A stretch of 64,000 nucleotides of DNA from Methanococcoides sp. (GTDB taxonomy: Archaea; Halobacteriota; Methanosarcinia; Methanosarcinales; Methanosarcinaceae): the NCBI GenBank assembly GCA_021108275.1, contig JAIORD010000037.1:62001-126000 (forward strand), in the 5' to 3' direction. Positions 1,820 to 59,685 of this stretch are shown piece by piece (within the stretch, counting starts at the first letter, position 1; every line of letters begins with the position of its first letter). The notes under the pieces are model-generated. The model saw only the letters and a list, made by a program, of their open reading frames with translations. It searched no databases and was not told where the DNA came from. Made by a program: the position numbers and the translations under genes.

Positions 1820-1971
1820 CTAAGCAATAAATTAGGCATATTTGATATATTCTTTTCCCAGTTCGCCGTTTTCTGTATTGATACACAAAATTGACAAGTA
1901 TGTCAAAATTGTGTTTTAGTAAATTTGAGGAAAATCACATACCTAATTATTTAAAAAAAAGTGTGAGAGGA

Positions 1972-3093
1972 TCATATAATATCCATCTCACTCAACCTGT
2001 TCGGCAGGTACGTATCAGTTACAAAGTCCAGACCTTTTCCAGCAAAAGCTTGTTGTTCCGCCTTTTTCTTGATACTAAGCTGTAAGCTGATCTGCTCTTT
2101 CCAGTAGTCATTTGCGAACCTCGGGTCTGTAAGTTCACTTCTAAGCGCATCCACATCCTTGTCTGTCAGCTTATCTGTTGAAAGCTCATACTCAACGATA
2201 TCCGTCGGCTGAACACCAATGAACTTTGCAGCAGGGGTTGCCATGAACTCTGAAAGGTGGGCACTCTTGATAGCACCGTATGCAACTGAAGCGAAGATCC
2301 TGTAAGACCAGGGATCACCATCAGTGAAAACAACAACAGGAATTCCAAGCTCCTCGTTCATCCTTTTGATAAGACGGCGAGTTGACCTTGCAGGCTGTCC
2401 TTTCAGGTGCACGAGGATAGCATTGTATTTCTCATCGAAGCCGTTCTCAATAAGCCTTGCATACATACCACCAGTCTCTATGGCAATGATGAACTTGGCA
2501 TCGTGGTCAAGGAACTCGATGTTCTCCACATTGAACGGGATCTGATAACCACTTTCACCGATATCTTCCTGACAGTGTATGATACGGGAGCCACGTTTGG
2601 TCTCCTCTCGTATCCTTATCGGACCGAACATGGTAGCACCATCTTCTTCAGGACGCATATGGAAATATTCCCTCTGAAGGGCTGTGATGATCTCAAGGTC
2701 TTCAATAAGGCGATTGCTCTCCGCCTGCTCACGGAATTTAGCAATATCCCAGTTCTCGGAGATATAATACAGCTCCCTTAAGGTCGAACCACGGTCCTGT
2801 GCCAGATGGTTCTTCACAAGGAAATCAATGGAATGTACGGTCTTAAGCAACTGGAAAGCCCCTTTGACCGTTTTTGCGGTCCTTTGGGTTTCCTTATCGC
2901 CATATACCCAAACATCACTCTCATTACTGTATTCGATATTGTTCTTGGTACGACTGGATATAGCCACATTCGGAACTATCTCATCAATGAACTGGTCGTA
3001 CAGCCCCTCTGCTAAGCCCATCAGCCTGTTCTTTGCCAGATGGTCGTTCTGTTTTTTCTGCTCTGTGTAATTGGAATTAATAGTATCTACCAT
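1972..3093 (-). CDS. top6A: DNA topoisomerase VI subunit A
   Basis: The 373-aa DNA-cleaving subunit of the type IIB topoisomerase that relaxes and decatenates archaeal chromosomes. The active tyrosine is in RELYY (Tyr109/110), and the Toprim metal site is formed by Glu206 in IAIETGG and the Asp-Gly-Asp triad at 258-260 (FTDGDPW). Length is normal for the family. It starts one base after the stop of top6B on the same strand, so the two subunits of the A2B2 enzyme are translated from one message. Confidence 0.96.
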
Positions 3094-3094
3094 T

Positions 3095-4963
3095 TCAGAT
3101 CAACCCTTTGATAGCTTTCGCACCTGTGACCAGCTCTTCATCCAGACCTTCAACGATCAATTGAGGTAGCCTCTTTATCTCGTCCTCGCTCATGGAACTC
3201 AACGAATATGTTATCGCTTTAGAGCCTTCAGGAGAAACCTTCATAGCCCATACATAATCAAAATCACTGCCCATGGAGATAACCTTTGGTTCTGGCGATA
3301 CATCACCTATCTCATAAGGAAGCATATCGTGCAACTTGAACTCCGTAAGCTTACTGCCAAAGTTCTTCACCTTTATTGTGACCGCTGCATCTCCGTTAGC
3401 CCCGTGTTCCACATTGCGCATAACAAGAAGATTCCCCATTACCTTTGCAACCACCGGATTGATGTCAGGGAGATCACGCTCAAGGGTATCCGCAAGTTTC
3501 TGGGCCATCTTAGGCAATACCTTAGTGATGATGACCTCCTTCTCACGCCTTTTCTTAAGTGAGACCTGTCGATTCAGATAACGGTTCATCTTCCTCGAGA
3601 CCTCTTTAATTGCAAGCTCCACCTCATCCCTTATCTCAGGAATATCAGCAATGGCATCCTTGGATTCTGATGTGAACGGTACGTTCGTAGAAGCCACATG
3701 GACAAGCAGAACCACCGGACCTGAGGGCATTCCACCTCCGGGCTGATTCAGACCATACTGTTTCCACTTGATCCCCTCGACAGCATGGGTCGAGGCGCAT
3801 CCACCCTGCTGATACAGCAAGGGAACACGGTTTGCAAATCTCATGATATCAATGCGATCATCTTTCTGGAGAACGCCACCGTATGCGATACCAACCTCCA
3901 CAACGAAAGGATTGCCTGAAAAGACAGAAGGGCTACGGGTGGTCGTGGCAATAAAATCGACATTGAACTCTTTTTCAAGACCTTTGTATATGAGTTCTTC
4001 ACCGATGGGAGAGAGACAATCCGTCGGAGGAGCCATTATCTTCACTTTTTTGAAGGCATCCAGCAATTTCTTCGTCTGGTCCCTAGTAAGCTCCGAAGGC
4101 AACATCTCAGTATCAAGTCCGGCTGCCTTGCAGATTTCCTCGGCTGTAAGCAGACCTATCTTTGAGAACGAATAGCGTAAGAACGGAGCTAATTTCTGGC
4201 GATCGGTATAGCGCAGCATCTTCATGAGAGTACCAAGCTCAATTCCATGAGGATGCGGCAATATTTCCTTTGCAGGAATTGGAAGCTTGTCAGTAGCCCT
4301 TTCAAAGATGACCTCATTGCCATCCGGCTCTATCAAAGTGAGCCGTGCATGAGGATTTACGATAGCAGTTGCTTTCAGGTATTCATAGATGGACTGTCTG
4401 CGTCCCTTTACATAAGACGCTTCCATTTCCAGCTCCACACGAGTACCATGCGGCCTATCCCAGTCGATCACCTCATCAAGAAGGATCTCAGGGTCATTGG
4501 TACTGGTATTTATCATTACTTCATAGTGATGCGCAGGGGAATCAGGACCGATCTTGGAAATGACACTTGTTGGATGACCTGATGTCAACTGTGCATAGAG
4601 GACAGAAGCTGAAATACCAATACCCTGTTGCCCCCGGCTTTGTTTCAGTGCATGGAAACGTGAGCCGTAGAGCAACTTGGCAAACACCTTGGGTATTTGC
4701 TCTTTAACGATACCAGGACCATTGTCCTCTACTATCACACTTACATTATCCTTTCCGACACGCTCGATATGAAGCAATATATCAGGAAGGATCTCTGCTT
4801 CCTCACATGCATCAAGGGAATTGTCCACTGCTTCTTTTACGGTAGTTATCAGACTACGCGGAGCAGAGTCAAAACCAAGGATCTGCCGGTTCTTCTCAAA
4901 GAATTCTGCAACACTTATTGCTTGCTGCTTTTTTGCAAGTTCTTCTGCAATTGGGGCTGCCAT
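3095..4963 (-). CDS. top6B: DNA topoisomerase VI subunit B
   Basis: The 622-aa ATPase subunit of topoisomerase VI. It is a GHKL ATPase: the N-box is [12 protein letters not shown] near residue 47, followed by EDNGPGI and GQQGIG. The middle is a helix-two-turn-helix and the C-terminal half a transducer with a conserved lysine region that links ATP binding to strand passage by subunit A. The C-terminal extension beyond the transducer is the length usual for methanogens. First gene of the top6BA pair. Confidence 0.96.
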
Positions 4964-5072
4964 ATAATACTCATCCTACATTACTAAAAAATTGGTTGAA
5001 ACAACGACTATACATTTTCTGATAGAAATATCAGGAGCTATTGACTGTGATCATTCAAAAATAGAATGCAAG

Positions 5073-5087
5073 ATATTTATTCGTTTG
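5073..5087 (-). promoter_or_regulatory. TATA/BRE-like promoter for top6BA
   Basis: Read on the minus strand, CGAATAAATATCTT has a purine-rich BRE-like lead and an AT core typical of archaeal promoters. It lies about 110 bases before the top6B ATG. Inferred from sequence only. Confidence 0.4.
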
Positions 5088-5114
5088 CAGCCATTTTAAA
5101 TTTCAGCATGATCA

Positions 5115-5172
5115 CTGCGATAGATCTCTGCGATAGATCTCTGCGATAGATCTCTGCGATAGATCTCTGCGA
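5115..5172. repeat. 13-bp tandem repeat, 4.5 copies
   Basis: CTGCGATAGATCT is repeated head-to-tail four times without a mismatch (starts at 5115, 5128, 5141, 5154) followed by CTGCGA. It occupies the space between top6B (start 4963) and the cytosine deaminase (end 5241), both minus strand. Each unit contains a BglII-type AGATCT palindrome. The minus-strand open frame through the repeat is a by-product of the periodicity, not a gene. Confidence 0.95.
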
Positions 5173-5240
5173 AACGGATCCACGAAATGACATTCTGGAG
5201 TAGGATACTACACCGTACACCATAGTAGATCATGTTAAGA

Positions 5241-5672
5241 TCATTTTCCAATATCTTCGTTCCAGAGTTCCGGATCTTTACTGATAAAATCATCCATCAT
5301 TGCTACACATTCATCAAGGTCAAGGTCGACCACTTCAACTCCATGGGATTCCATAAATTCCCTTGCTCCTGAGAAGGTCCTGGATTCGCCAACAATTACC
5401 TTTTTTATGCCAAATTGTACCACAGCACCGGCACAAAGATAGCAGGGCATCAAAGTGGAATAAAGAATTGAATCGCGATAGTTCCCAACCCGTCCGGCAT
5501 CCCTGAGGCATGAAATTTCAGCATGTGCCATTGGATCATCCTGTTGGACACGTAAATTGTGACCCTTGCCAATAATCAGATCATCCCTTACAAGAACCGA
5601 ACCAATGGGAATTCCACCACTGTTAAGTCCCGATCTCGCTTCATCTATTGCTACCTGCATAAATTCATCCAT
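5241..5672 (-). CDS. Cytosine deaminase, fungal FCY1-like type
   Basis: A 143-aa zinc deaminase. The zinc ligands and proton shuttle are in HAEIS (about residue 51) and MPCYLCAGA (PCxxC, about residue 76), and the protein aligns along its whole length with the small FCY1-type cytosine deaminases (GGIPIGSVLV near the start, ending in WNEDIGK as in yeast FCY1). It would convert cytosine to uracil for pyrimidine salvage; other small purine/guanine deaminases share the fold, so the exact base is inferred from the C-terminal signature. An AT-rich spacer separates it from the upstream U32 gene. Confidence 0.85.
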   Translation of the reverse strand: MDEFMQVAIDEARSGLNSGGIPIGSVLVRDDLIIGKGHNLRVQQDDPMAHAEISCLRDAGRVGNYRDSILYSTLMPCYLCAGAVVQFGIKKVIVGESRTFSGAREFMESHGVEVVDLDLDECVAMMDDFISKDPELWNEDIGK

Positions 5673-5754
5673 ATCTTTACACCCCGATAATTCAAATGGA
5701 AATATTAATAAGTATAAATATATTAAAGATTATAAATGTTTTGAAAAAAAGGAT

Positions 5755-6975
5755 TCAGTCCGGGATCTCCAACCTGTAGACTCTGTCATTTTCACGCACC
5801 TTATCCTTGACAGCAATTCCCACGACATCCCCCGAGGATGCAGATAGGACAGGACCTTCATCCGACCTTATCTCAGTGACAGCCTGTTCAAAGTATGTGC
5901 TTTTGCCTTCGATGATAATGTGGTCCCCAACAGCGATACCCGTTTCGAGAAGCTTTACTTCCGCCGCCCCGCTCTTCCTGAAATAATTGGTAATCACCCC
6001 TACAGCATGTCTTTTGGTAGTTGATACGTTCATATCAGATTCGATGGAAATACCATCAGGACCGGGTACCCCGAAGTAGAACCCTGTGGAAAAGCCACGG
6101 TTAAAGACCGAAGACAGCTCTTCTTTCCAGGACCTTGCTTTTTCAATTGTGTACGAACCATCACAATAGGAATCGAGAGCTTCACGATAACAGCGGGATA
6201 CCGTAGATGTATATCTCGCATCCTTCAACCTGCCTTCGACCTTGAATGCATTCACACCAGCATCGATCAGCTCCGGGATGTGTTCGATCATGCACAGGTC
6301 CCTTGCACTTAACAGATATTTCCCTTCAAGGTCCACCTCGCTGCCATCATCACCAACAAGTTTCCAGCCCCATCGACACGGTTGGGAACATTCACCACAA
6401 TTAGCGGACTTGCCGAGAACATAAGCGGAAAGGTAGCACCTACCAGAGATAGCCTGACACATGGCCCCGTGAATGAAAACCTCAAGCTCAATATCGGTGT
6501 TCCGGCGGATCTCCTTTATGTTCTCCATACTGAGCTCCCTTGCCAGAACGACACGGGAAGCGCCCAAAGAACCATAGAATTCCACGGTCTGCCAGTTTGA
6601 AACATTAGCCTGAGTAGATATATGAACCCTTAAACCAGCATCTACTGCTTTTGTAATAACTGCCGGATCCCATGCAATGACAGCATCAACATCTGAGGAT
6701 GCGACTGAATCGATAACAACATCGAGATCATCAAGGTCATCGGGATAGATCACCGTATTCAGTGCAAGATAAGCATTAAGATCATTCTCTTTGACATCAC
6801 TTACAAAATCATTGAGACCATCAAGTGTAATATCACATGCTCTTGCCCTTAGACTGAACCTGTCGATAGAGAAGTAGACCCCATCTGCATAGTCCTTGCA
6901 CGCAGCCAGAGATGCACGATTCTTGACACCCATCATAAGTTCAGGGATCTTTACAGATGATCCAGAGCAGTTCAT
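5755..6975 (-). CDS. Peptidase U32 family protein
   Basis: A 406-aa U32 protein. The family signature is seen as EVFIHGAMCQAISGRCYLSAY, followed by the cysteine cluster GECSQPCRWGW, and later VEGRLKD. Bacterial members (RlhA, TrhP) act in hydroxylation of 23S rRNA and tRNA with an Fe-S centre rather than as proteases, so an RNA-modification role is more likely than proteolysis, but the archaeal substrate is not established. The C-terminal ~80 residues form the usual beta-barrel with EGKSTYFEQAVTEI. Monocistronic, minus strand. Confidence 0.85.
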   Translation of the reverse strand: MNCSGSSVKIPELMMGVKNRASLAACKDYADGVYFSIDRFSLRARACDITLDGLNDFVSDVKENDLNAYLALNTVIYPDDLDDLDVVIDSVASSDVDAVIAWDPAVITKAVDAGLRVHISTQANVSNWQTVEFYGSLGASRVVLARELSMENIKEIRRNTDIELEVFIHGAMCQAISGRCYLSAYVLGKSANCGECSQPCRWGWKLVGDDGSEVDLEGKYLLSARDLCMIEHIPELIDAGVNAFKVEGRLKDARYTSTVSRCYREALDSYCDGSYTIEKARSWKEELSSVFNRGFSTGFYFGVPGPDGISIESDMNVSTTKRHAVGVITNYFRKSGAAEVKLLETGIAVGDHIIIEGKSTYFEQAVTEIRSDEGPVLSASSGDVVGIAVKDKVRENDRVYRLEIPD

Positions 6976-7062
6976 GGAGTAGCATCGTAAATGATAGTTT
7001 AAATCAGTTATTGTTGGAAAAGAAAAAAGAAGAAAGAGAGATATTAAGCAACTCTTAAGGCA

Positions 7063-7389
7063 TCATTCCCCGACAAAAGGTCTGGATACTCTTATAATAA
7101 TAACTGACACCAGGCCCCAGGCAAACGGAAGCCATAAGGGGATATTAAAGAAAAAAGCTTCAGCGTATGTCCAGACCCCGAGATAAGTGCCGATGAACTC
7201 TGCACTACATCCAATGATGACACCGGATACAAATACAATATTATCCCCTTTCTCAGACCAGAAATATTCACGTATGCCATATATCGATAATATCAGAAAG
7301 GTTAGTAGAAGATTGTTTTCCCAGAATTGTACTGCCACGATCAGTGCAAGCACAAAGATGAACAGGTCCCTGAAGATCGCTTTTTTCAT
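7063..7389 (-). CDS. Small integral membrane protein, 108 aa
   Basis: A hydrophobic protein with about four membrane segments (LFIFVLALIVAV, LLTFLILSIYGI, IVFVSGVIIGCSAEFIGT, and LPFAWGLVSVIIIR). The motif IPLWLPFAWG before the last segment is typical of a group of unassigned prokaryotic membrane proteins. I place the start at 7389 (MKKAIF), which has GGAGA six bases upstream, rather than at the ATG at 7401. Function unknown. Confidence 0.65.
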   Translation of the reverse strand: MKKAIFRDLFIFVLALIVAVQFWENNLLLTFLILSIYGIREYFWSEKGDNIVFVSGVIIGCSAEFIGTYLGVWTYAEAFFFNIPLWLPFAWGLVSVIIIRVSRPFVGE

Positions 7390-7529
7390 GTAGTTCTCCA
7401 TGTAGCATTAGAAACCATAATTGTATAAATAAAATTGGGGGCTTATATTCGATGCTACTTGTTTATATTAAAAGGAAGAACAAGCACCATCAGACCTATA
7501 GACCATAAATAAAGCTAAAGGATGGAACA

Positions 7530-8726
7530 ATGTCATTTCAACAAAGAGACAGCAGCATAGATGGGAAGTTAAAGGGTTCAGTACCTCTTCTTGCCCTTCT
7601 AACAGCATTTCCTGCACTTTCGACTGACATGATCCTACCAGCCATACCTCTACTTGCGGAAACCTGGAATAATTCCCTTGCTTATATTAATCTGATCCTG
7701 ATATGTTTTTTTGTCACGTATGGGTTCTTTCTTCTCTTCTACGGGCCCATATCCGACCGTTTTGGCCGCCGTCGTCCTTTACTTTTTGGACTTGGTGTGT
7801 ACATACTTGCAAGCTTGCTCTGTGCTCTTGCTACCAGTGCTCAAATGCTGATCATCTTTCGAATACTTCAGGCTTCAGGAGCAGCAGCCAGTTCATCATT
7901 GTCCATGGCTATGACCAAGGACATATTTTCTGGTCAGGAGCGAGAAAGGATCCTTGCCCACATAGCGATCATCATGGCCCTTGCTCCAATGATAGCTCCG
8001 GTCCTTGGCAGCTGGATACTGGTAGATCTTTCATGGCCCTGGATATTCTTTATTCAGGCCCTTCTGGGAGGTATCGGGTTTTTTGGAGTCATACGATTTC
8101 CGGAAACTCTACCCCATACATCCAATGCCCCTCTTTCCAGGGTCATGCACGCTTATGGCCGATTGATGCTAAACCCATCCTATGTTGTCATGGTCTTTAT
8201 CGTTTCAGCAACTCTTTTTCCAATGTACAGCTTCATTGCAGGCTCTTCTGCCATCTACATAAATGGATTCGGCCTGACCGAACAGAAATATAGCTACTTT
8301 TTTGCCTTTAATGCCCTTGCCCTGATGATGGGATCCTTCTTTTGCCTTCGTTTAACAAGATCCATCAATTCAAAGCATCTGATGACGTTCGGTTTTGTAG
8401 GCATTTTACTAGGTGGACTTTTCCTCATAATGAACAAAGATCAAAGCCCCTGGGGTTTTGCTCTTCCCATGTTCCTTGTTACGTTCTCGATCGGTTTGAG
8501 CCGTCCCCCTAGCAACAACCTTGTGCTTGAACAGGTTGATAGAGATGTGGGTTCAGCTGCTTCTCTGCTCATCTTCACATATTTCACCATGGGTGCCATT
8601 GGAATGTGGCTCATATCCCAGGAATGGGTGGACAAGATACATGTACTTGGATCGATCGCTCTTGGGTGTAGTTCCCTGGTTCTGGTTGCATGGTTGATCT
8701 TGCAAAGAAAGGGAATCGGAAGCTAA
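7530..8726 (+). CDS. Bcr/CflA-type multidrug MFS transporter
   Basis: A 398-aa major facilitator protein with twelve predicted membrane segments. It carries TDMILPAIP near the start and GPISDRFGRRRPLL (motif A) in the loop between helices 2 and 3, the combination typical of the Bcr/CflA drug-resistance group. Likely a proton-coupled exporter; the substrate cannot be told from sequence. The start ATG is preceded by AAAGGATGG. It is convergent with the CcdA gene downstream. Confidence 0.88.
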   Translation: MSFQQRDSSIDGKLKGSVPLLALLTAFPALSTDMILPAIPLLAETWNNSLAYINLILICFFVTYGFFLLFYGPISDRFGRRRPLLFGLGVYILASLLCALATSAQMLIIFRILQASGAAASSSLSMAMTKDIFSGQERERILAHIAIIMALAPMIAPVLGSWILVDLSWPWIFFIQALLGGIGFFGVIRFPETLPHTSNAPLSRVMHAYGRLMLNPSYVVMVFIVSATLFPMYSFIAGSSAIYINGFGLTEQKYSYFFAFNALALMMGSFFCLRLTRSINSKHLMTFGFVGILLGGLFLIMNKDQSPWGFALPMFLVTFSIGLSRPPSNNLVLEQVDRDVGSAASLLIFTYFTMGAIGMWLISQEWVDKIHVLGSIALGCSSLVLVAWLILQRKGIGS

Positions 8727-54340: not shown

Positions 54341-54691
54341 TCAGTCAAAACCGTTCAATTCGCACCATTTACCATGACCTTCCCATACCTTTACAGATAC
54401 TGGAAGCCCAAGCTGCTCAAAAAGCTGACCATGCATGTGTTCGCACATATTTTCAGCACTTGGGAAAGGAAGAACGTCATTCAAAAGCTTATGGTCGTAT
54501 GTTTTGAGGATTTCCTTTACGATCTTCTTGATAATGTAAAAATCCATGACCATTCCATTCTCTTGTTTCTCGCCTTCCAGAACTATCTCTATTTTATAGG
54601 TGTGACCGTGGACTATACCACAGGTCTCGTGTTCCGGCAAATAGTGTGCACTGTCAATGTATTCTATTATTCCAAGTCTCATTTTTGTCAT
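54341..54691 (-). CDS. queD: 6-carboxytetrahydropterin synthase (QueD)
   Basis: About 116 aa of the 6-pyruvoyltetrahydropterin synthase fold: zinc histidines in YIDSAHYLPEHETC and IVHGHTYKIEI. It makes the carboxy-pterin used by QueE. The ATG at 54691 overlaps the queE stop (TAATG); an upstream GTG at 54706 is less likely. Confidence 0.88.
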   Translation of the reverse strand: MTKMRLGIIEYIDSAHYLPEHETCGIVHGHTYKIEIVLEGEKQENGMVMDFYIIKKIVKEILKTYDHKLLNDVLPFPSAENMCEHMHGQLFEQLGLPVSVKVWEGHGKWCELNGFD

Positions 54692-55407
54692 TATAGGCAA
54701 CCCCACATTTTGTGTGTCTGAGGAATTATTAATGTATCCACTGAATCAAGCAGGTCTTTTTGCAATTGAAGCAAAAATTCAATGCCTGATGAAAAATGTT
54801 TTTGTGTTACCGGTTGAAGCACAACACAGGAAACATATTCGGATATAGCATCCACCATCCTGTATACATCATCCGGAACAGTATCCTTTGTGACGACCAG
54901 TTTACAGAAACATTCCCTGTCCTTTGTCTGTCTGAGTATTCTAAAACATTCGATGGTCTGTTCAAGATGTGTCACAAGGTCCTCACCTTCGAACTCATCT
55001 ATGAGCTTTATGTCCCCTGAAACGTAAGAGACCTTATCCTTGATCTTTTCCGCCATATGAGGCAATGTCATGTTCGATTCCAGATACAATGGATGAGGTA
55101 TATCCATCTCGGAAATGAAATCCGCATGGAGAAGAGGTTCACCCCCGGTCAGGGAAACTGAATGGATATTGCCATAATTACCAAGGAGCTCACTGACCTG
55201 AGAGGTCACAAGAGGATTCGGGATATTCTCAAAGCTGTTCGAACCCGGTGTTCTTTCAAACATGCAGACACTGGGGTCTGCCGGTTCGGTATCACAATAA
55301 GAACAATTCAGATTGCATCCGATGAAACGCACGAATGCCTGCCTCACACCAACATGAGGACCTTCGCCCTGAACAGAACAGAATATCTCACTTATGGGAG
55401 CTTCCAT
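54691..55407 (-). CDS. queE: 7-carboxy-7-deazaguanine synthase (QueE)
   Basis: A 238-aa radical SAM enzyme: FCSVQGEGPHVGVRQAFVRF, cluster GCNLNCSYCDTE (Cx3Cx2C), and SLTGGEPLLHADF. It turns 6-carboxytetrahydropterin to CDG for archaeosine. Its ATG touches the DUF366 stop. Confidence 0.93.
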   Translation of the reverse strand: MEAPISEIFCSVQGEGPHVGVRQAFVRFIGCNLNCSYCDTEPADPSVCMFERTPGSNSFENIPNPLVTSQVSELLGNYGNIHSVSLTGGEPLLHADFISEMDIPHPLYLESNMTLPHMAEKIKDKVSYVSGDIKLIDEFEGEDLVTHLEQTIECFRILRQTKDRECFCKLVVTKDTVPDDVYRMVDAISEYVSCVVLQPVTQKHFSSGIEFLLQLQKDLLDSVDTLIIPQTHKMWGCL

Positions 55408-55973
55408 CAGATCACATCCAGAGGCCGTGATTTTCGCAGGTCTTTTTCAATATCATGGATCTCAGCAACATATCGATCGCCAATGTCAGTAAGTAAGCTT
55501 ACTGCCCTGGCCTCATCGATCCCGACATCATTGAGGTTGCCATAGAAATCATGGTAGACATTTATACCAAAATGGATCTTCTGGGATACTGCCGAAGTGC
55601 TGGCGATCGATATCGTCAGTTTTTTACCATTTACAAAAAGGTCATCCCCCTGACGGGTGGTAACGATACCATTAGCAGACAAAGATTCTGCAACAATTGA
55701 AGTAAAGAGCCGCTGTCTCGCGTATACCAATTTAAGGTCAGTGGAATCGAAGTGCTCTATTAAGAAATGCAGCATATCTGTAGAATAGATGGAATCGCCC
55801 ATTCTTTTGTCTTCAAGGTCTATCATATGTTCTATCTTAACATCGCATCCGCCCCGGAAGGCAACGATGGAATCATACTGAACACCTTTCAGGTTATACG
55901 CCCAGAGAGAAGATATCTGGCTGCCATCATAATGTACTTTTTCATCTAGAACGATACATTCCATTACAAACAC
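55407..55973 (-). CDS. DUF366 family protein in the archaeosine operon
   Basis: A 188-aa soluble protein (LDEKVHYDGSQISSLWAY, VARQRLFTS, YHDFYGNLNDVGIDEARAVS). It belongs to the archaeal DUF366 group as far as I can tell. It lies between queC and queE with minimal gaps, so it should serve preQ0/archaeosine synthesis or a pathway that shares it. Function not established. Confidence 0.7.
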   Translation of the reverse strand: MFVMECIVLDEKVHYDGSQISSLWAYNLKGVQYDSIVAFRGGCDVKIEHMIDLEDKRMGDSIYSTDMLHFLIEHFDSTDLKLVYARQRLFTSIVAESLSANGIVTTRQGDDLFVNGKKLTISIASTSAVSQKIHFGINVYHDFYGNLNDVGIDEARAVSLLTDIGDRYVAEIHDIEKDLRKSRPLDVI

Positions 55974-55977
55974 CTTA

Positions 55978-56676
55978 TCATTTTAAGTCAGCTCGTTTTT
56001 TAGTAAGAGGATCTTCAAACTCGGAGGCAAGGAATGCACGCTTCCTCCTCATGCAACTTTCACACAAACCACAAGGCTCTTCGGCCCCGTGGTAGCAACT
56101 CCAGCTCCATTCCAGAGGTGCACCCAATTCCATTGCTTTGCGTACTATGGATACCTTATCCATATCAATAAGTGGTGCGAGTACTTTTACACCGTTAGCA
56201 GTTGAATAGGAAAAACATTCATCCACTGCGTTCACGAACTCTTTGGAATTATCCGGAAATGTTTTTGCCTCTTCACCATTGAAGCCTGCGATGACATATT
56301 CACATCCATAGCTTTCAGCAAAGCTTGCTGCAATATTAATGAAAACCCCATTCCTGTTGGGTACCCACACGTTCTTTGCAGAATCAGCAGTGATGTTAGA
56401 AGCATCATCCACGATGTCTTCGATAGACAGTTCAGGAACATCCAGGTCCTTGTTCACAAGAGAGGTATTCGTGATGGAACCAAGCCATTTCAGTGGAATT
56501 ATCCTATGCTCGATACCATAGTGTTCACATACATATCTGGAATTTTCGATCTCCTTTTCAACGGAGCGTTGACCATAATCGAATGTCAGCGCCATTACAA
56601 CTTCATGGTCCTGTAATGCAATTGCAAGAGCGGCTACCGAATCAAGACCACTGCTCAGTAATAGTATAGACTTCAT
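55978..56676 (-). CDS. queC: 7-cyano-7-deazaguanine synthase (QueC)
   Basis: A 232-aa ATP-dependent nitrile-forming enzyme: the PP-loop [23 protein letters not shown], and the zinc cysteines ending in [14 protein letters not shown]. It converts CDG to preQ0, which archaeal TGT inserts into tRNA for archaeosine. First gene of the operon. Confidence 0.95.
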
Positions 56677-58699: not shown

Positions 58700-58825
58700 T
58701 GACAAAGGTCAAGTATTGAATTCACCAGAAGGAGAATCGAACCTTTTTCAAACTTCCTCAAAAGCTTGCCTTTACATCAGATATTTGAACTTTTCGAGAA
58801 TGGCCGCTTTGTCCGAAAAAGAGGG

Positions 58826-58883
58826 TATTTATCGGACAACAACATGAATTTTCTGTCAAAATCAGTATTATTCGGACAAAGTG
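58826..58883 (+). repeat. Left subterminal repeat of the cassette
   Basis: This 58-bp stretch (TATTTATCGGACAAC... to CGGACAAAGTG) aligns with 59550-59604 (TATTTGTCGGTCAAA... to CGGACAAAGCG) in the same orientation with few mismatches and short gaps. Both contain repeated TCGG(A/T)CAA words, like binding sites for a transposase or regulator. Confidence 0.7.
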
Positions 58884-58890
58884 TAAAAGA

Positions 58891-59112
58891 ATGAGAACAA
58901 ATTTCAGTAGATCACTAATTTTGGCAATATGTGATTATACATATGGTGCTGGATGTGGATTAACTGGTATAGCTACTTGCTTACTTGGTTGTGCAATATT
59001 CACAGGTCCTGCATTAGCTGCATGTGGACCAATCTGTGGAGTTGTATTCATTGTGTTGTGCATATATAGAACACAGAATAATTATCCACTTATTTGCACA
59101 CAATATTGTTAA
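58891..59112 (+). CDS. Cysteine-rich bacteriocin-like peptide
   Basis: A 73-aa protein with nine cysteines (14, 22, 30, 34, 45, 49, 57, 69, 73), three of them paired as CxxxC, spread over a small, glycine/alanine-rich hydrophobic core (LLGCAIFTGPALAACGPICG). No known enzyme motif. The pattern of small hydrophobic residues between cysteines resembles halocin C8-like archaeal peptides, but that is a resemblance only. It lies inside the inverted-repeat cassette and starts eight bases after the left subterminal repeat. Confidence 0.6.
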   Translation: MRTNFSRSLILAICDYTYGAGCGLTGIATCLLGCAIFTGPALAACGPICGVVFIVLCIYRTQNNYPLICTQYC

Positions 59113-59205
59113 ATATATTACAATGTTATATTTACCAATAGAATCCCATTGGAAAATATTATTTTTTTGTAAAACGCATGGTTAAATATTGGAGATGTAA
59201 ACAAT

Positions 59206-59409
59206 ATGCTACTTGGTTCTTTATTATTGACCGTATTGATAATGATTTTACTAACTCAATACCCATTCTATGTTCAGAAATATAAACCAAAAAAATATGT
59301 TGGCATATGGTACACCTTTGGAGAAATAAACAGAACCCCGATTCGTGCATTAGTGTATCCACTTGTTTACTTGATTGTTGGTTTGATATATATTTTATTT
59401 ATTCAATGA
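59206..59409 (+). CDS. Small two-helix membrane protein in the cassette
   Basis: A 67-aa protein: helix 1 LLGSLLLTVLIMILLTQYPFY, a basic loop (VQKYKPKKYVGIWYTFGEIN), and helix 2 LVYPLVYLIVGLIYILF. A GGAG site lies in the 15 bases before the ATG. Size and neighbours would suit an immunity or anchoring protein for the cysteine-rich peptide; this is a guess. Confidence 0.55.
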   Translation: MLLGSLLLTVLIMILLTQYPFYVQKYKPKKYVGIWYTFGEINRTPIRALVYPLVYLIVGLIYILFIQ

Positions 59410-59549
59410 CTATCCCATTTTCATATGGAGATTATGTATTATCAGGGCAAAAAGGTATTGGAATCAAGTGAAAGAAATTAAATCCAAGTTCTTAATACAT
59501 AGCCTCAGTTATGTCAAGAGTTTAGTTTGGTTGAGGATTTCTAAATAGC

Positions 59550-59604
59550 TATTTGTCGGTCAAAAATATGAATTATCGGTCAAATCGATTTTTCGGACAA
59601 AGCG
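59550..59604 (+). repeat. Right subterminal repeat of the cassette
   Basis: Partner of 58826-58883; its last 16 bases form the right terminal inverted repeat, while in the left copy the same word (TTCGGACAAAG) lies inside the element, with the true left end inverted outside it. Confidence 0.7.
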
Positions 59605-59685
59605 GAGAATGGCTACTTAAGAACTTTACATAAAGATCGATCACTTTGCGATATATTGATGTACTTATAAAAGAGATTCATTTTA

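Follow-up and report, generated by a model that had tools for sequence, protein, structure and literature searches.

The mobile insertion cassette is a concept derived from IS231 and MIC231 of Bacillus, in B. cereus (Chen 1999; De Palmenaer 2004; via PMC2266710). MIC231 has the ends of an insertion sequence (IS) and a target site duplication (TSD), carries a passenger gene and no transposase, and presumably moves when a relative that shares its ends acts in trans. An 800-bp element located in the window, as we call the whole 64,000-nucleotide stretch of Methanococcoides sp. DNA analyzed here, is built along the same lines: it has inverted ends and a TSD, its passenger genes are not accompanied by a transposase, and its ends are common to transposase-coding elements of other strains (L079 and L024). 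Judged by its sequence, its architecture is that of a mobile insertion cassette, for which movement in trans is presumed. It differs from MIC231 in its archaeal host, in its unrelated ends with asymmetric repeat arrays, in the many cargo genes found within one family, in the likely SWIM-DDE transposase and in a target that adjoins a promoter-like motif.

Two further groups of elements offer parallels. TnGBS, ISLre2 and ISKra4 insert at a fixed distance of 15-17 bp upstream of sigma-A promoters, for which guidance by the transcription machinery has been proposed, as for yeast Ty3, and for archaea the same paper notes only the AT-rich preference of ISH6 (PMC3942029). The family described here likewise keeps a fixed promoter distance, but the motif is BRE/TATA-like rather than sigma-A, lies directly at the TSD and is used in both orientations; compared with p-MULT 3/4 elements, it has the fixed promoter distance and lacks the Mutator-type (p-MULT) transposase, its own presumed enzyme being IS5-like DDE_Tnp_1 with a SWIM finger. 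Pack-MULEs have TSDs of ∼9 bp, capture gene fragments and prefer 5' gene ends, and many MULE transposases contain SWIM fingers (PMC6446971, PMC3942029). TSD length, SWIM finger and gene capture all recur in the present family, but the catalytic domain is DDE_Tnp_1/IS5-like and not Mutator, and the likeness is functional and not by descent. In the open-access literature, ISfinder being outside the scope of the search, we found no paper on this family or on archaeal SWIM-IS5 transposases, and the family is apparently undescribed.

Our main reading, to which we assign a probability of roughly 0.78, is that the window element is a non-autonomous cargo transposon that is moved by a SWIM-DDE transposase, enters a 9-bp cut at a BRE/TATA edge and carries captured host DNA. 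We infer which transposase moves the family, how the target is recognized and how cargo is captured, as follows. The SWIM-DDE transposase of full-size members in other strains would bind the TCGGACAA arrays at both ends and bring the CGCTTTG termini together. It would then cut the target with a 9-bp stagger, precisely where an archaeal core promoter (BRE/TATA) begins on its upstream side, and ligate the termini there; the promoter would be recognized via bound TFB/TBP or through its sequence itself. Since insertion would occur at the upstream edge, the core promoter would stay intact. The family would acquire and carry host genes or gene fragments between its ends, the window copy having gained a fragment of a halocin-C8-like operon and a decayed piece of another IS.

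Boundaries and extent of the family

The preliminary description read perfect 17-bp inverted repeats (58804-58820 and 59589-59605), abutted on both sides by AGAATGG, as the mark of an insertion. Both repeats are present, but alignment of ∼20 related elements at one offset places the boundary one base further in, giving an element of 800 bp (58805-59604) with a perfect 16-bp terminal inverted repeat (TIR), and TSD lengths of 7 bp or 8 bp were replaced by 9 bp once the copies were aligned at a fixed offset. Ten elements have a perfect 9-bp TSD at one and the same offset, and 4 more have it with one mismatch, whereas in a control that used mismatched end pairs a perfect 8-mer occurred in just 0.5%, at any of 25 offsets. 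Furthermore, the joined flanks of the window element align without a gap to two Methanococcoides relatives, G003 (92%) and G006 (87%), in which a single copy of the target lies uninterrupted, as the preliminary description had anticipated for related strains. The insertion is therefore real and missing from both. The opposite view, that this is a fixed regulatory region whose inverted repeats arose by chance and where nothing was inserted, has no supporting point that we could find, is already refuted by the two empty sites and by the TSDs in many copies, and retains a negligible probability. The window element is a genuine transposon-type insertion, and its description as a non-autonomous transposon with cargo is strongly supported by the copies of its ends, the empty site and the absence of a transposase inside. 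Its features are listed in Table 1.

Table 1. Features of the window element and its insertion site (window coordinates)
Feature	Position	Strand	Basis
BRE/TATA-like motif GAAAAGTTCAAATA adjoining the left TSD, pointing left	58782-58795	-	Agreement with GAAANNTTTATATA at offset 0 in 10 of 12 positions
Left TSD, GAGAATGGC, 9 bp	58796-58804	.	Multi-copy alignment at fixed offset
Left TIR, CGCTTTGTCCGAAAAA; contains inverted motif copy TTGTCCGA at 58809-58816	58805-58820	+	Alignment, inverted-repeat search
Left subterminal direct repeats: TCGGACAA (58832-58839), TCTGTCAA (58852-58859), TCGGACAA (58872-58879)	58832-58879	+	Sequence; conserved across elements
Nine-cysteine ORF, 73 aa; from 58932 on, truncated halocin-C8-like mature domain	58891-59112	+	
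Captured operon fragment, 476 bp, 86% identity to G059 (L162)	58932-59407	+	DNA alignment
Intergenic inverted repeat, also kept in the G059 operon	59128-59159	+	DNA alignment
Hydrophobic protein, 67 aa, 85% identity to second gene of the G059 operon	59206-59409	+	
Decayed IS5-like element end: transposase C-terminus and inverted-repeat remnant	59441-59549	+	
Right subterminal repeats, one orientation: TCGGTCAA (59556-59563 and 59576-59583), TCGGACAA (59593-59600)	59556-59600	+	Sequence
Right TIR, TTTTTCGGACAAAGCG	59589-59604	-	Inverted repeat and multi-copy alignment
Right TSD, GAGAATGGC, 9 bp	59605-59613	.	Multi-copy alignment at fixed offset

The ends recur in related genomes and the interior does not. 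A model built on left-end sequences has matches in 27 of 112 Methanosarcinaceae-type genomes, from four genera, and just one weak match outside that taxonomic family but within the class; Methanococcoides seepicolus LLY is a carrier, the sole organism named by a genome-wide pattern scan. The left end is composed of one inverted TTGTCCGA followed by two or three direct copies of TCGGACAA at a spacing of ∼20 bp, and at the right end every motif copy is in a single orientation, making the ends asymmetric. These subterminal repeats are putative transposase binding sites. Mini copies consist of the two ends without an interior, with a TSD, and one of them is located in the window's genome and is common to G002 (L095/L098). 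Copies of 75-100 bp (L036, L095 and L098) qualify as MITEs, that is, short, non-coding IS derivatives, which the 800-bp window element with its cargo does not. The search for further copies of the ends, and for a full IS bearing them, was therefore rewarded across genomes and only in part at home: the window's own genome gave no full IS with these ends, but contained a mini copy at C2:160261, a left end without a partner at C4:62772, and some weaker hits.

The candidate transposase

A 5.46-kb element with the TSD TAGTTTTGA (L079) encodes a 503-aa protein that combines an N-terminal SWIM zinc finger with DDE_Tnp_1 (Pfam PF01609, E = 1e-19). A transposase 70% identical to it is found in G007, inside a 5.9-kb composite (L024) that is flanked at its outermost ends by the same 9-bp duplication, GAAAAAATG, and in both of these full-size copies the gene has the same neighbor and the same placement relative to the left end. 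Across four transposases D285, D360, R418, E422 and K429 are invariant, and the Y of YREK is F in one of the four; the D, D, E and YREK-type residues of DDE_Tnp_1 follow the IS4/IS5 superfamily pattern. The best NCBIfam match is IS5_2 (NF033579), with 131.5, 115, 108.3 and 125.8 bits, all below the cut-off of 140, and no Mutator or IS256 model is among the profile matches. The candidate thus resembles the IS5 family in its catalytic domain and signature, and departs from it in its score, its N-terminal SWIM finger and the repeat-array ends.

The SWIM-DDE transposase is present in 18 of 393 sampled genomes of the phylum. It was not detected in at least 23 carrier genomes, nor in the window's genome, from which it follows that the window element is at present probably stranded. 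With so many carriers in which the gene is not detectable, the ends could be the substrate of a different transposase, and the SWIM-DDE genes would then be mere cargo, in keeping with the varied genes that the elements do bear. We consider this unlikely, given that the gene occupies the same position beside the same neighbor in both full-size copies and that none of the copies examined encodes a different transposase. Distant homologues also speak against it. Just past the genes at L105, L118-L120 and L130 the DNA is organized like these ends around a different motif, as in CGGCTTTGCACGTAAAA and the direct motif copies behind it, a design reached by 0-2 of 100 shuffles. Recognizable ends lie beside only some of the distant SWIM homologues, and the second ends and TSDs of these elements were sought and none was resolved. 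The shared design suggests that the SWIM-DDE family is accompanied by GCTTTG ends in which motif copies form an asymmetric array, and together with the gene's presence inside two full-size copies it makes the SWIM-DDE transposase the likely mover of the family, a role that is well supported and that we infer from sequence comparison.

Several details of these elements merit mention. The transposase frame of L024 has an early in-frame TAG (∼4582-4636, G007), possibly read as pyrrolysine in this family or else a dead codon before an internal start. In both full-size copies the transposase is adjoined by a divergent zinc-ribbon gene (L079 4594-5154; L024 3815-4306) whose product could act in targeting or regulation. 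A second type of end, GGGCTTGCCCATAAAGT, which has a repeat array of its own, adjoins a 43%-identical SWIM transposase in G049 (L104 5880-6085) and lies directly beside an element in G009 (L025 from 2612); it probably represents a sister subfamily.

The target site

Reading outward from the TSD, and usually on one side, GAAA starts at +1 and is followed by a TATA-like run at +7. The archaeal core promoter consists of a BRE and then a TATA box, and the pattern matches this order. Flanks were scored against the fixed pattern GAAANNTTTATATA, of 12 positions, with the other offsets in the same flanks as background. At offset 0 the mean score in 40 flanks was 6.22, compared with 3.74 (sd 0.25) elsewhere (z = 10), and in a held-out test of 24 ends that were not used in forming the idea it was 6.00 compared with 3.68 (sd 0.32; z = 7.3). 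Scores of at least 9 of 12 were seen in 18 of 64 flanks at offset 0 and in at most one flank at any background offset. Per insertion site, 18 of 44 score at least 9 and 28 of 44 at least 7, and hence not all sites show the motif. Elements sit in both orientations relative to it. By this scoring, the TSD adjoins a promoter-like motif at a fixed, single-base spacing.

Whether the likeness reflects transcription factors is a further step. Across 213 upstream regions, a set that includes some element flanks, the motif was counted 197 times in sense and 133 times in antisense, mostly at -60 to -21; the window's own upstream regions alone were uninformative, with the motif in 15 of 28, and in 11 of 28 when the reverse strand was read. 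The enrichment in the larger set is just moderate and the center of the TSD is itself AT-rich, both of which would suit a transposase that reads an AT-rich target only, with a promoter likeness unrelated to transcription factors. That explanation is possible, if somewhat doubtful in our estimation, in view of the BRE-like GAAA fixed at +1 and the TATA-like stretch at +7, usually on a single side, with the remaining offsets in each flank as the control. In 15 of 23 high-scoring flanks an ORF begins no more than 150 nt away, a weak point against it given that 19 of 41 low-scoring flanks also show this.

We hypothesize instead that TBP/TFB guide the insertion. Yeast retrotransposons and a few bacterial Mutator-like elements are known to direct their transposition to sites beside promoters. 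The TBP and TFB of archaea correspond, in simple form, to the eukaryotic factors, and with an archaeal case the guidance of integration by transcription factors could be tested directly from purified components. We give even odds to the broader proposition that archaeal transposons land on promoter-bound TFB/TBP at the BRE/TATA edge with single-base precision and shuttle captured genes among methanogens. If true, such a family would be an archaeal counterpart of Ty3 targeting and Pack-MULE capture, built on an unrelated SWIM-IS5-like transposase.

At the window site itself, the motif is also present in the empty sites of G003 and G006. No ORF lies downstream of it in the window's strain, and in G002 a 139-aa ORF lies downstream of the same motif; this leftward ORF is part of ∼670 bp (L134 2557-3224) in the same intergenic region that other strains do not have.

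Cargo of the window element and its relatives

The window element contains a nine-cysteine ORF and a small hydrophobic ORF and no transposase, as the preliminary description stated. Searches of Pfam and PHROGs with both proteins gave no match, and the sole Rfam hit, to a plant miRNA, was weak (E = 0.043) and far under its cut-off. The two ORFs correspond to neighboring genes of an operon in G059, where the relative of the 73-aa ORF (67% identity) makes up the C-terminal portion of a precursor of 254 aa. The operon's first gene encodes, in G059 and G031, a precursor of 248-254 aa with a leader and an immunity-like part ahead of the mature peptide, and the third a thioredoxin/DsbD-like protein. 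DNA homology to G059 begins within the mature-peptide region and ends with the 67-aa gene (58932 and 59407), leaving the window copy without the leader, the immunity-like part, the first cysteines and the third gene. From this span and the missing parts, the window copy is a captured operon fragment beside a decayed IS end.

The likeness to halocin C8 suggested in the preliminary description was right in kind. On TIGR04450, an immunity/bacteriocin fusion family of halocin C8 type, the G059 precursor scores just under the cut-off (23.3 bits against 27, E = 4e-5), and on TIGR04449 it reaches 14.6 against 24; the 73-aa window ORF itself falls below both cut-offs (TIGR04449, 12.8; TIGR04450, 9.7). 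Compared with halocin C8-type precursors (TIGR04449, TIGR04450, NF040679), the G059 and G031 proteins share a Cys-rich hydrophobic C-terminal peptide, a leader and an immunity-like part and score under the cut-offs, their operons add the 67-aa and thioredoxin/DsbD-like genes, and the window copy retains only part of the mature domain.

An antimicrobial peptide with its immunity protein is unsupported for the window copy, and a working bacteriocin is unlikely because the leader and immunity part are missing. It is accordingly improbable that a bacteriocin/immunity cassette was transposed and is kept under selection, with the peptide acting on competitors and the 67-aa protein conferring immunity. 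Both window ORFs are intact, the pairing of peptide and 67-aa gene persists in G059 and G031, and dN/dS compared with G059 is ∼0.2 for the 67-aa gene, as such a cassette would have it. Against this, homology starts only inside the mature domain, the start codon of the 73-aa ORF falls in transposon-end sequence, so that its translation may be accidental, and the peptide's dN/dS of ∼0.4 is not assignable to the window branch. Judged by these substitution ratios, the window cargo may or may not still be in use.

Intact operons were observed in four genomes (L162 2325-4438, G059; L163 383-2569, G031; L164, G050; L165, G049), with a Cys-rich precursor of 206-254 aa and a 67-aa membrane protein, joined in G059 and G031 by the thioredoxin/DsbD-like protein. 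They are candidate halocin-C8-like bacteriocins that lie under current family cut-offs, and bring into view a group of unstudied methanogen operons, bacteriocin-like and with three genes.

Elsewhere in the family, the shared ends enclose varied interiors that include a serpin, NosD-like beta-helix proteins, LolA-like and other lipoproteins, an S-layer-like protein, multi-helix membrane proteins and unknowns. L027 (G006) and L034 (G009) are 88.7% identical across the exact element length and not beyond, with different TSDs, and a match between L040 and L081, from different genera, runs up to the element ends and then stops. Identical kinds of cargo thus occupy unrelated sites and lose their homology where the element stops, which indicates that cargo moves. 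The family would thus be a concrete route for single-gene transfer among methanogens and could serve as an integration tool there. The L024 composite (1885-7790) carries a single 9-bp duplication and modules separated by end sequences, namely a broken serpin gene, internal ends, the SWIM transposase, the zinc-ribbon gene, another left end and a NosD-like gene.

The internal repeat at 59441-59549 was considered as an sRNA or a MITE, and both were rejected in favor of the IS5-like remnant. Such remnants, ending in GGCTCTGTAGAAATCCTCA, are scattered across these genomes, and occur, besides the one inside the window element, on G000 contigs C27, C22, C14, C28 and C4; an end similar to this type lies near the left end of L079. 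Elsewhere in the window, three adjoining genes (54691-56676) have the look of 7-deazaguanine (QueE/QueD/QueC-type) biosynthesis, judged by eye from their translations only.
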